64,000 nt of DNA from Acidaminococcus timonensis (GTDB lineage Bacteria; Bacillota; Negativicutes; Acidaminococcales; Acidaminococcaceae), in contig NZ_FNWH01000005.1 in NCBI RefSeq assembly GCF_900106585.1, positions 249,962-313,961 of the forward strand. The letters are read 5' to 3'. The notes under the pieces are model-generated. The model ran no database searches. It worked only from the letters and a program-made list of their open reading frames with translations, and was not told the DNA's origin. The translations under genes and the position numbers were made by a program. Below are positions 11,279 through 22,019 of the stretch, in pieces (the first letter of the stretch is position 1; every line of letters begins with the position of its first letter).

Positions 11279-11710
11279 ATGCTGACTCCACAAGAATTGA
11301 CCCGGCTCCTGAAAGAACGGGGTATGAAAATCACCCCCCAGCGGCTGGAAGTCTACGGGGCATTTTCCAATGCGGAAGAACATCCTACGGCCACAGAAAT
11401 CTACGAAAAGGTCAAGGCCCGGATGCCCACCCTGAGTTTCGCCACCATATACCAGGCTTTGAACTTTTTCTGCAGGCAGGGCCTGCTCCAGACGGTGGAT
11501 GTGGGGGACGGTGCCATGCGATATGATGTGGATACCCGCCCCCATGCCCATTTCCGCTGTGAATGCTGCGGAAAGGTGATGAACCTGGACTACGCCTATC
11601 ACCATCACCTGGACCGGGACGTGGCCCAAAAGACCGGTTTCCTCATCCACCATCACCAGACACTGTTTTTGGGAATTTGCAGAGAGTGTCAAAAAAATAA
11701 GGGGGTGTGA
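11279..11710 (+). CDS. Fur-family metalloregulator (PerR/Fur type)
   Basis: 143 aa. Winged helix (about 1-80) followed by a dimerisation domain with the structural zinc pairs C94/C97 and C134/C137. Aligned by eye to B. subtilis PerR, the regulatory metal ligands are H35, D83, H89 and H91, but the position equal to PerR Asp104 (Glu in Fur) is Asn102. It controls iron or peroxide responses by binding A/T-rich operators. AAGGAGG lies 7 bases before the ATG. Single gene ending in a double terminator module. Confidence 0.88.
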   Translation: MLTPQELTRLLKERGMKITPQRLEVYGAFSNAEEHPTATEIYEKVKARMPTLSFATIYQALNFFCRQGLLQTVDVGDGAMRYDVDTRPHAHFRCECCGKVMNLDYAYHHHLDRDVAQKTGFLIHHHQTLFLGICRECQKNKGV

Positions 11711-11823
11711 AAAAATGCTTTTTCACACCCCGTCACTAGTCTCTAGTCTCTAGTCACTAGCCGATGGAAGCCAGCTGACGCTAGCGAAACAAAGGCGCTG
11801 TGGATAATTTTTCACAGCGCCTT
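11702..11823. repeat. double-terminator repeat module, copy 1
   Basis: Terminator A (11702-11731, GGGGTGTGAAAA stem), a 60-base spacer with repeated CTAGT-type words, then terminator B (11792-11823, GGCGCTGTG / CACAGCGCC). It lies between convergent genes. A near-identical copy in opposite orientation is at 13277-13396 and a third, diverged copy at 51637-51758. Confidence 0.85.
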
Positions 11824-11834
11824 ATTTTTTTCTG

Positions 11835-12818
11835 TCAATCACCCACAGCGACAGCAGCTTCTTTGGCCGCTTTCTGTCTGGCTTCGTATCTGTCCATGTT
11901 CCGGGCGAACAGACCTGCCAGGAAGGACCCGGTGATCTGATGGATGGCAGCCCCTACCGCAGCGGGGATGGCCACAGCCGGAGCAAAGTACACCGCGCAG
12001 ATGGACAGGGCCAGGGCATCGTTCTGCATTCCCACTTCCAGCGTTACGGAATGCTGCTGGGCTTTGCCCATACCCAGTTTACCGGTCACAAAGTACCCCA
12101 GGGCGAACCCGGCCAGGTTGTGCAGCAGCACCAGCACCACCATGAAGGCACCCAGAGCCACGATCTTGGCTCCGTTCACGGCAACCACACCGCCCAGGAT
12201 GGACAGGACAGCAAAAGCGGACAGCAGTACCAGTACTTTCTGGACCTGGGCCAGGAATTTCTCGCCCACCACTTTGTGGACCATCAGTCCCAGCACCAGG
12301 GGAACCAGGATGACCTTCATGACGGTCAGCGCCATGGAAACAAAGGAAACGTTCACATATTCACCGGCCAGGGCCCAGACCAGGAACGGCATCATCACAG
12401 GAGCCAGCAGAGTGGAAACGGTGGTGACGGAAACGGCCAGAGGCACATCTCCCTTGGCCAGGAAGCTCATGACATTGGAAGCCGTACCACTGGGGCAGGA
12501 GCCCAGGAGGACCATGCCCACTGCCAGATCCGGGCTCAGGTGGAAGACCTTGGTCAGGGCAAAGGCCACCAGCGGCATGATGGTATAATGGCAGACGGTA
12601 CCGGCCAGCACTTCCTTCGGTCGCTGCAGCACCAGTTTGAAGTCAGAAACGTGCAGGGTCATGCCCATGCCGAACATCACCACGCCCAGCAGCCACACGG
12701 TATAATGGACGGACCAGGAGAAGGCTCCCGGAACGAAATAGCCGCCCACGATGGTGGCCAGTACCAGCCAGGTCAGATTCTTCCCCACGAAACCACTTAC
12801 TTTTGTCAACAAATTCAT
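11835..12818 (-). CDS. BASS-family (bile acid:Na+ symporter-like) transporter
   Basis: 327 aa, about nine to ten membrane segments. The GSCPSGTASNV motif in the middle is typical of the family, as is the C-terminal GAAIHQITGS region. Members carry bile acids, pantoate or 2-oxo acids with Na+. The start at 12818 has GGAGGG 8 bases upstream; a reading frame to 12944 runs into the T-box terminator and is rejected. The gene lies alone behind a T-box leader whose specifier reads AUC (Ile), which points to a role in branched-chain amino-acid metabolism, for example 2-oxo acid or precursor uptake. This is inference; the substrate is unknown. Confidence 0.88.
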   Translation of the reverse strand: MNLLTKVSGFVGKNLTWLVLATIVGGYFVPGAFSWSVHYTVWLLGVVMFGMGMTLHVSDFKLVLQRPKEVLAGTVCHYTIMPLVAFALTKVFHLSPDLAVGMVLLGSCPSGTASNVMSFLAKGDVPLAVSVTTVSTLLAPVMMPFLVWALAGEYVNVSFVSMALTVMKVILVPLVLGLMVHKVVGEKFLAQVQKVLVLLSAFAVLSILGGVVAVNGAKIVALGAFMVVLVLLHNLAGFALGYFVTGKLGMGKAQQHSVTLEVGMQNDALALSICAVYFAPAVAIPAAVGAAIHQITGSFLAGLFARNMDRYEARQKAAKEAAVAVGD

Positions 12819-12895
12819 TTTCCATTCCCTCCATGCAATTGATTTGGATTTTGCAAAAATCAAACGGCTGATGGCTTCCCTGGGAGAAAATAAAA

Positions 12896-13180
12896 AGCGC
12901 TTTGTCTCCTGTAAGAGACAAAGCGCTATGCTCTGCGGTACCACTCTTTTTGTCGCAACTGCGACCTCTTGACAAGCATCTCCGGATTTCCCCTTCCAAT
13001 GCCGGACAGGATAACGACTGTCAACCGGCTCCGCTTACTCGTAATCCTTTCAGCGAGCAGCTCCTGGGTGATTTTCCTTTTCCGCTGTGCATCCTGCCTC
13101 GCACCCGGTGGCAGGTTCTCTGGAATGTCAGCCTGGACAAGTACTTTTCCCAATCAACACTGTCTGATGTTTTGTTATGG
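12896..13180 (-). ncRNA. T-box riboswitch, isoleucine specifier (AUC)
   Basis: On the minus strand: Stem I with AGTA (13142-13145), the apical stem CCTGCC/GGCAGG, and the specifier loop GAAA-ATC-A with codon ATC at 13070-13072 followed by a purine, matching the layout of B. subtilis glyQS. The T-box core AGAGTGGTACCGC is at 12935-12947. A 13-bp terminator stem AGCGCTTTGTCTC / GAGACAAAGCGCT (12896-12927) with a T-rich tail follows. Uncharged tRNA-Ile should favour readthrough into the BASS transporter gene, whose start is 78 bases downstream of the terminator. Confidence 0.88.
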
Positions 13181-13185
13181 GTTTT

Positions 13186-13213
13186 ATTATACACTTTCAG
13201 GAAAATTTGTCAA
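13186..13213 (-). promoter_or_regulatory. promoter of the T-box leader
   Basis: TTGACA (13208-13213), 16 bases, TATAAT (13186-13191) on the minus strand; consensus hexamers immediately before the leader. Confidence 0.8.
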
Positions 13214-13276
13214 CAAGTTTTTTCGATGTTTTTAATTTATGGACAAACGTACGACATACAATAACACACAAAAAAA

Positions 13277-13396
13277 GCGCTGTGAAAAAATCATCCACAG
13301 CGCCTTTATTTCGCTAGCGTCAGCTGGCTTCCATCAGCTAGTGACTAGAGACTAGTGACTAGTGACGGGGTGTGAAAAAGCATTTTTTCACACCCC
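13277..13396. repeat. double-terminator repeat module, copy 2 (inverted relative to copy 1)
   Basis: Terminator B (13277-13303), spacer with the same CTAGT-type words and GCTAGCGTCAGCTGGCTTCC, then terminator A (13367-13396). Read in reverse it is almost the same sequence as 11702-11823. Terminator A serves the permease gene ending at 13405. Confidence 0.85.
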
Positions 13397-13404
13397 CTTT
13401 TGAC

Positions 13405-19912: not shown

Positions 19913-21253
19913 TCAGGCTTTCTGCCCCGAAAACTTCACAACTGCCACGGCTGCCACCAGGGCCGCCAGAGCGGGCAGCAGCCAGCTCATGCCCAGGCTG
20001 AACAGGGGCAGCTGATGATAAAGTCCCAGCAGGCTCTGGACGGCGCCCAGGTTCTGTACGCCTTTGGGCAGGGCACTGAGCATATCCCCGAAGGCTGCAA
20101 ACCCGGCCAGCACCATGGGCCACCGGTACAGACGCCGATCCTTCCCGAACAGAGCACAGGCAAAAGCACTGAGGATCAGGGTAATGGCCATGGGATACAG
20201 AAGCATCAGGATGGGGACGGCCAGCTGGATGATCTGGGTCAGCCCCACGTTTCCGATCAGGAAGGAAACCCCGGCTACCAGTACACAGCAGGTCCTGTAC
20301 CCCGGTTTCCCCGGGAACAACTCCATAAAGGTATTGGAACAGGCTGTGATCAGGCCGATGGCCGTTTTCAGGCAGGCAAAGGTGACAATGGCCGCCAGCA
20401 GCACGCCCCCAACAGATCCAAAATAGGCATGGGTGATCTGGGCCAGGGCGATGCCCCCGTTGGCGCTGATGGGCAGCCGGCCCACACTGGAGGTGCCCAG
20501 CCAGGTGATCAGGGTATAGAGCAGGGCCATGAGAAAGACCACGATGGCCCCCACCTTCAGCAGATCTTTGGTGATGTTCCCGGTGTCGGTGATGCCCAGG
20601 TTCTTCAGGGTATCGATCACCACCACAGAAAAGGCCAGCATGGCCAGTACGTCCATGGTGTTATACCCTTCCTTGAAACCGGTCAGGAAAGCATGGGCCA
20701 CGTAGTCCCCCTGGGGCAGGGCGCTGCCCATGCTCCCCATGGGATTCAGCAGAGCGGCGGCCATCAGGATGGCCAGGAACACCAGGAAGATGGGATTCAG
20801 TCCCTTGCCGATGTACACGATCAGTTTGGAGGGTTTCAGAGAAAACAGCAACCCCACCCCCATGAATACAAAGGTAAAGATTGCCAGCAGCAGAGGCTGC
20901 TCGCCGACAAAAGGAGCAATCCCGATCTGGTAGGAGACAGTGGCCGTCCGGGGCAGGGCGAAGGCCGGACCGATGGTCAGATACAGCAATACCGTAAAGA
21001 TTTTGGCAAAGGTCGGATGCACATTCCCGGCCAGCTCTTCCAGGCTGGCGCTGCCTGAGAGCCCGAAGGCAATCAGAGCCAGGAAGGGCAGGAAGACCCC
21101 GGTGGAAATGAAGCCGAAATTGGCCCTCCAGAAATGGGAACCGGCCAGCTGGCCCATGTGTACCGGAAAGATCAGGTTCCCGGCGCCGAACAGCATCCCG
21201 AACAGCATGGAACCTACAAAGACATATTCTGCACCTGTCAGTTTCTTGTTCAT
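19913..21253 (-). CDS. brnQ: branched-chain amino acid transport protein BrnQ (LIVCS family)
   Basis: 446 aa, about twelve membrane segments, beginning MNKKLTGAEYVFVGSMLFGMLFGAGNLIFP-type, the well conserved N-terminus of LIVCS carriers. It imports Leu, Ile and Val with Na+ or H+. Start 21253 follows AAGGAGGG; the frame to 21298 runs into the SDR gene. It begins 10 bases after the upstream SDR gene and is probably co-transcribed with it. Confidence 0.93.
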   Translation of the reverse strand: MNKKLTGAEYVFVGSMLFGMLFGAGNLIFPVHMGQLAGSHFWRANFGFISTGVFLPFLALIAFGLSGSASLEELAGNVHPTFAKIFTVLLYLTIGPAFALPRTATVSYQIGIAPFVGEQPLLLAIFTFVFMGVGLLFSLKPSKLIVYIGKGLNPIFLVFLAILMAAALLNPMGSMGSALPQGDYVAHAFLTGFKEGYNTMDVLAMLAFSVVVIDTLKNLGITDTGNITKDLLKVGAIVVFLMALLYTLITWLGTSSVGRLPISANGGIALAQITHAYFGSVGGVLLAAIVTFACLKTAIGLITACSNTFMELFPGKPGYRTCCVLVAGVSFLIGNVGLTQIIQLAVPILMLLYPMAITLILSAFACALFGKDRRLYRWPMVLAGFAAFGDMLSALPKGVQNLGAVQSLLGLYHQLPLFSLGMSWLLPALAALVAAVAVVKFSGQKA

Positions 21254-21263
21254 GGTTCCCTCC

Positions 21264-22019
21264 TTATTTCGCGGTGAGCCCGCCGTCCACGGGAACAATG
21301 GAACCGGTCATGAAGCCGTTCAGCGGCGACAGGATGGAGCAGATCACATGAGCCACTTCCTCCGGTTTGCCGATGCGTCCCAGGGGATAGACGGAAGCCA
21401 TACTTTCCAGGGAATAGCCGCCTTCTTCCAGCTGTTTCTGCACCAGAGGTGTATCCACATCGCCGGGGCATACACAGTTCACCCGGATCCAGGGAGCCAG
21501 ATCCAGGGCCAGTGCCCGGGTAAAGGCTACCACAGCGCCCTTGGCAGCGGCGTACAGGCTGCAGCCGTAGTTCCCTTCCAGGGCAGCGTCAGAGGCGATA
21601 TTCACGATGGAGGGACCTTCATCGGCAAAATGGGGCAGCAGTTGCTGGGTCAAGAACAGCGTACTTTTCACGTTCCCATCCATGAGGCGGTTGTAGTCAT
21701 CTTCGGTGATGTCCTGCAGGGGTTTCTCCTGATACAGCCCGGCACTGTTCACCAGGAAGTCCAGTTTTTTCCCGTCTTTTCCCACAGTTTCAGCCACTTT
21801 CCGGCAGCCCTCCAGGGTGCTCAGGTCGGCCTGGACATAGAGGGCTTCCCCCTCCCCGCTCTCCAGCTCAGTCAGTGCTTTCTGCCCTTTTTCCGCATCC
21901 CGGCCCACCAGGCAGACGGACGCACCCTCCCGTACCAGATTCCGGGCTACAGCCAGACCGATGCCGGAGGTACCCCCGCTGATGACGCCCCATTTTCCTT
22001 CCATACCATACTTGATCAT
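21264..22019 (-). CDS. SDR-family oxidoreductase
   Basis: 251 aa classical short-chain dehydrogenase: GGTSGIG nucleotide-binding loop, NSAG motif, and active site S...YAAAK. The length and C-terminus (GSIVPVDGGLTA) resemble 3-oxoacyl-ACP reductase-like enzymes, but the many paralogous SDRs make the substrate uncertain. AAAGGAGG precedes the ATG. It starts just after the cold-shock gene terminator and is followed closely by brnQ. Confidence 0.88.
   Translation of the reverse strand: MIKYGMEGKWGVISGGTSGIGLAVARNLVREGASVCLVGRDAEKGQKALTELESGEGEALYVQADLSTLEGCRKVAETVGKDGKKLDFLVNSAGLYQEKPLQDITEDDYNRLMDGNVKSTLFLTQQLLPHFADEGPSIVNIASDAALEGNYGCSLYAAAKGAVVAFTRALALDLAPWIRVNCVCPGDVDTPLVQKQLEEGGYSLESMASVYPLGRIGKPEEVAHVICSILSPLNGFMTGSIVPVDGGLTAK

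Follow-up and report, generated by a model that had tools for sequence, protein, structure and literature searches.

A T-box leader specific for isoleucine precedes the gene for a BASS (sodium/bile-acid symporter family) carrier in Acidaminococcus timonensis, and the arrangement recurs among orthologues with isoleucine, valine or leucine specifiers. We suggest that isoleucine starvation probably switches on a carrier for a branched-chain C5-C6 2-oxo (or 2-hydroxy) acid skeleton. The unit lies on the reverse strand of the window, by which we mean the whole stretch of 64,000 nucleotides that was analyzed (Table 1).

The first-pass annotation, made from the letters of this DNA, had described a complete T-box leader and named a covariance-model search as a check. 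That search gave a full-model match to Rfam RF00230 (cmscan, 110 bits against a curated cut-off of 93, E 2e-23, model 1-219), and every element that had been named was found. An AGTA box lies within 13148-13139 (-) and an AGAGA element at 13121-13117 (-), the specifier loop reads GAAA-ATC-A, the core AGAGTGGTACCGC contains the UGGU, and TTTTATTTT is located directly 3´ of the terminator. The terminator folds with -24.4 kcal/mol (z -4.6 against shuffles) and competes with the antiterminator, which is paired in the Rfam alignment of the leader. Free folding of Stem I by itself did not outperform shuffled sequences (z 0.30); the leader structure rests on the covariance model. All features of an RF00230 T-box that can be tested in sequence are present.

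Table 1. Features of the T-box/BASS unit and its flanks, in window positions.
Feature	Position	Strand	Remarks
Promoter	13186..13213	-	-35 TTGACA 13213-13208, -10 TATAAT 13191-13186; 12/12 consensus matches, spacer 16
T-box leader RNA	12911..13166	-	Rfam RF00230, 110 bits
Specifier codon AUC (Ile)	13070..13072	-	register tested on ten known T-boxes; conserved in orthologues
T-box UGGU	12940..12943	-	complementary to ACCA end of tRNA-Ile
Intrinsic terminator hairpin, 14 pairs, then T run	12896..12927	-	
BASS (sodium/bile-acid symporter family) carrier gene, 327 aa	11835..12818	-	PF01758 5.7e-44; ASBT-NM homologue
Inverted copy of genome-wide interspersed repeat, 3´ of carrier	11699..11812	.	terminator-like hairpins
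Second copy of same genome-wide repeat, 5´ of promoter	13273..13399	.	

The specifier was read with a register rule, codon plus 5 nt plus GGAG (or TGAG/AGAG), which was tried on further T-boxes in this genome. For ten genes, whose names were assigned by reading their translations, the rule gives ATC (ileS), GTC (valS), TTC (pheS), ACC (thrS), ATG (metA), TCC (serA), TGC (cysE), TGG (trpE) and CTG (leuA and leuC); for the carrier leader it gives ATC, or isoleucine. Neighboring registers are ruled out because all four bases occur 5´ of the codon in one orthologue leader or another while ATC itself stays constant, and the candidate specifiers AAU, AAA and UCA were rejected on this variation and on the correctness of the ATC register in the ten known T-boxes. 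The same genome encodes a tRNA-Ile(GAU) with the 3´ end ACCA, which matches the UGGU. The isoleucine specifier proposed in the first pass is borne out by these observations, and as judged from sequence the control of the carrier by isoleucine is firmly supported and its regulation near certain.

The carrier matches PF01758 (SBF) over most of its length (150.5 bits against 24.3) and the ASBT of Neisseria meningitidis (ASBT-NM; 3zux/8oyf) with a phmmer E-value of 6e-75, in agreement with its earlier description as a sodium/bile-acid-type carrier. Translation most likely starts at ATG 12818, after a GGAGG, rather than at the GTG that opens the longest ORF. The protein shares 96% identity with the A. 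fermentans carrier and 93% with its A. massiliensis counterpart. The unit is monocistronic; its 3´ neighbor is a PerR-like regulator on the opposite strand, and the YfcC-type gene 5´ of it ends short of the T-box promoter. Two mutually inverted copies of an intergenic interspersed repeat (~127 bp, hairpins at both ends, ~40 genome copies, 85-100% identity) flank the unit. A mobile cassette was considered and rejected, since with ~40 copies genome-wide the two flanking ones are probably incidental. The genome encodes ilvC, ilvB, leuA, leuC and a single Aminotran_4 (IlvE-type) protein.

Orthologues, defined as carriers found at E<=1e-95 in 380 Negativicutes genomes, all have a T-box 5´ of the gene (27/27), in many cases confirmed by Rfam and in the remainder recognized by core, AG box and specifier. 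Their specifiers are isoleucine at 18 loci, valine at 8 and leucine at 1; at several loci they were read by eye from the leaders, ahead of the column tests described below. One orthologue (L200, 1194-1410) has a T-box with a shortened Stem I, a natural truncation that scores 66.9 bits, under the cut-off. Isoleucine and valine paralogues occur together in three genomes (G335, G338 and G341), and an isoleucine and leucine pair in a fourth (G332). The tandem G341 pair (L202/L194, G341:C13) is ~1 kb apart, with leaders that are near-identical except in the specifier region, and the isoleucine and valine copies of G338 (L204/L195, G338:C28) are ~2.7 kb apart. Both duplications retain 91-92% identity, and each copy has its own T-box, one for isoleucine and one for valine.

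In a midpoint-rooted protein tree, the valine/leucine group lies inside the isoleucine group, and three isoleucine carriers are nested back within the valine group with strong support. A second clade of BASS proteins, 35-39% identical to the window protein, also has T-boxes (isoleucine 10, valine 4), with both specifiers present in G083, G084 and G085. The second BASS protein of A. timonensis, BASS2 (L003, G000:C6:477327-478631), is 34% identical to the window carrier and follows an isoleucine T-box of 125.9 bits that it shares with its closest relatives only, most of its family being without one; L227 is a further BASS lineage with an isoleucine T-box. This distribution suggests that BASS genes gained a T-box about four separate times. 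The tree requires five changes of specifier label, all among isoleucine, valine and leucine. Outside the class, 13 BASS loci taken from other classes in the same phylum showed no T-box 5´ of the gene; a phylum search at 1e-110 gave zero matches, a result that is uninformative.

Comparison with ASBT-NM, whose numbering is used throughout, points to a substrate site that is related to that of the pantoate carriers and altered at particular positions. Residues 112-115 (TASN) and 260-265 (EV-MQN) of the crossover region are conserved, so that the window carrier shares Thr112, Ala113, Ser114, Asn115, Glu260 and Asn265 with PanS/ASBT-NM (pantoate and ketopantoate; 3zux, 8oyf); it differs in having Gln for Asn295, Ala for Gly267, Asp for Ser266 and His for Gln77. 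Among the likely sodium-site residues, positions 114, 115, 132, 260 and 264 are kept, while 128 is changed from Ser to Ala and 77 from Gln to His. In clade-2 proteins (L065, L205-L214, L231-L233), Arg77 and Glu264 stand in place of the two Gln residues of ASBT-NM, which suggests that the second sodium site is altered or that ion coupling differs.

ASBT-NM bound pantoate, not ketopantoate, and its His294 and Asn295 hold the terminal hydroxyl of pantoate (PMC10645422). This pair is kept in 104 of the 110 scored BASS proteins without a T-box, including all eight with a pan motif 5´ of the gene. In the two main T-box clades, every scored member has either His-Gln, which is the pair in the window protein and the rest of its clade, or Gln/Glu plus Phe/Tyr/Asn; these His-Asn counts are not independent, because a single change per clade, in two clades, accounts for them. 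BASS2 and L227 follow isoleucine T-boxes, yet retain the His-Asn pair, and may therefore remain pantoate-type or be of mixed use. Two relatives of BASS2 (L177 and L178) are among the genes with a pan motif, and panC follows the BASS gene in L114 and L178. At another locus (L161, 1468-3979), a BASS2 gene lies 107 bases 3´ of ilvD on the same strand, an arrangement that physically links BASS to branched-chain 2-oxo acid synthesis.

Position 207, which in ASBT-NM lies against the substrate during the inward turn of the protein (PMC10645422), follows the specifier in both clades: all isoleucine carriers have Leu or Met there, and all valine or leucine carriers have Val or Ile. No other column separates isoleucine from valine carriers in both clades. 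The nested isoleucine carriers have reverted to Leu, and BASS2 and L227 fall outside the rule. Neutral simulation on the tree gave 21 such columns in 60,000, or 0.11 expected per 322-column protein, for which reason we regard the correlation as suggestive only; among 21 positions that had been picked in advance from structural papers, ~0.007 would be expected. The differences shared by the 91-92% identical isoleucine/valine duplicates include 75, 207, 292 and 293. A tentative extension, to which we give less than even weight, is that several BASS lineages serve bacteria as an import route dedicated to branched-chain 2-oxo acids, in which specifier (Ile, Val, Leu) and pocket (207; 75 and 292/293 in recent duplicates) change jointly, each paralogue being tuned to the skeleton that its T-box senses.

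In the model we favor, the anticodon of uncharged tRNA-Ile(GAU) would pair with the AUC specifier when isoleucine is short, and its ACCA end with the UGGU. Binding of the tRNA would stabilize the antiterminator, the terminator would not form, and the BASS carrier would be transcribed. The direction of transport, the substrate and the ion coupling are inferred: the carrier would import, probably coupled to sodium, a C6 carboxylate with a branched chain, of which (S)-3-methyl-2-oxopentanoate or the corresponding 2-hydroxy acid is the most likely, and an IlvE-type aminotransferase could convert the imported 2-oxo acid to isoleucine. 2-Oxo acids are among the known BASS substrates, and plants have BASS carriers for them (PMC10645422). 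Where the orthologue specifier is GUC or CUC, the carrier would have the same role for valine or leucine. 2-Oxoisovalerate is a precursor of both of these amino acids. Given sister copies with valine or leucine switches, BASS carriers of this kind therefore probably import the carbon skeletons of branched-chain amino acids.

Import of an isoleucine precursor had been proposed as probable in the first pass, and is strengthened by the Ile/Val/Leu switching, the repeated gain of the T-box, the contrast with pan-motif genes and the changes in the site. The branched 2-oxo acid that had been given as an example is supported in part. Thr112 and Asn265 belong to the pantoate (2-hydroxy acid) site, and plant keto-acid BASS proteins have Gln and Ser there (PMC10645422); retention of Thr112 and Asn265 in the window carrier therefore makes a 2-hydroxy acid possible and fits it equally well. 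2-Oxobutyrate, also listed at that stage as a substrate to test, is unlikely because orthologues carry valine and leucine specifiers, with which it conflicts.

Anaerobes carboxylate 2-methylbutyrate, isobutyrate and isovalerate to 2-oxo acids, and the carrier could instead import a reduced or hydroxylated relative made extracellularly, either such branched short-chain fatty acids or 2,3-dihydroxy acids. This would be consistent with the Ile/Val/Leu set and with two strong POR_N matches (putative 2-oxoacid:ferredoxin oxidoreductases) in the genome, and Asn265/Thr112 favor a hydroxyl adjoining the carboxylate. However, BASS sites bind a 2-oxygen, which the fatty acids do not have, and dihydroxy acids are not known to be common nutrients, so that we find such substrates unlikely. 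Rather unlikely as well is import of isoleucine itself, or of valine or leucine in the orthologues. T-box-controlled transporters of other families do carry the amino acid that is sensed (PMC2494555), and Asp266, beside Asn265 in the window clade, could meet an amino group; but Asp266 is replaced by Ser or Ala in isoleucine carriers of 54-56% identity (L054-L056), the BASS members named in PMC10645422 include no amino-acid carrier, and a BrnQ-type carrier is already encoded in this genome (window 19913-21298).

It is also conceivable that the protein is still a PanS-type pantoate/ketopantoate carrier, with 2-oxoisovalerate, from which ketopantoate is made, as the reason why the T-box tracks branched-chain supply. 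The nearest named family is indeed the PanS equivalog NF047939, BASS genes with a pan motif or panC linkage occur in the same class, and BASS2 retains the pantoate site. Against this, the window carrier fails each of the three PanS features tested: it scores 231.7 bits, under the cut-off of 400; His294-Asn295 is altered, Asn295 being replaced by Gln, with Gly267 also replaced by Ala; and the window holds no pan motif and the gene, being monocistronic, has no pantothenate-gene linkage. Isoleucine and leucine specifiers would moreover make no sense for pantothenate, and we hold this explanation to be very improbable. Import of a branched-chain skeleton is the reading we prefer, with the retained Thr112/Asn265, the altered Ala128 and His77, and the BASS2 and L227 exceptions as the points that speak against it.

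The genes described so far as being under T-box control encode aminoacyl-tRNA synthetases, biosynthesis enzymes and amino-acid transporters. A survey of T-box-controlled transporters reported the families ABC, APC, LIVCS, MFS, NhaC, NSS and DAACS (Wels et al., 2008, PMC2494555); the window carrier, a BASS protein by Pfam and NCBIfam, lies outside all seven. It shares with those transporters (LIVCS/BrnQ, ABC, APC, NSS and others) the transcriptional T-box, with isoleucine, leucine and valine among their specifiers, but they carry amino acids, whereas known BASS members carry organic acids. It differs from carriers of the PanS/ASBT-NM type in having a T-box where those have a pan motif or panC linkage, and from plant BASS 2-oxo acid carriers, members of the same family, in that those are plastid proteins with Ser/Gln at 265/112 and without an RNA switch. 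BASS is thus a new transporter family for T-boxes, T-box regulation itself being known.

The TBDB database catalogs 23,535 T-boxes together with their specifiers and the genes that follow, probably including some of the elements seen here; the paper describing it makes no mention of bile-acid, sodium or symporter genes, nor of Negativicutes (PMC7778990). No prior report of a T-box paired with a BASS gene was found in the literature searched, whose scope left two central papers outside. The earlier statement that no characterized case was known agrees with this, with the reservation that TBDB probably lists single elements. The probable import of branched-chain skeletons by BASS carriers would be a supply route without description in that same literature. 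If correct, the model would mean that gut and rumen Negativicutes salvage branched-chain amino acids by a regulated route, and would suggest substrates for some members of a large family whose usual annotation is bile-acid symporter. Duplicates that are 91-92% identical but differ in specifier provide a ready natural experiment on transporter specificity.

Other T-boxes stand near BASS or other transporter genes. Three adjoin BASS genes without preceding them (L073, 2472-2743; L216, 2176-2468; L214, 959-721, reverse strand), and the first of these, of leucine type (CTC by register), is followed by a sodium:solute-symporter-like gene. In A. timonensis itself, a cysteine-type TGC T-box (L009, G000:C4:71540-71759) precedes an ABC importer resembling MetNI, and a CTG T-box (leucine-type in the same register; L004, G000:C6:930772-931013) precedes a multi-spanning membrane protein that resembles a permease.
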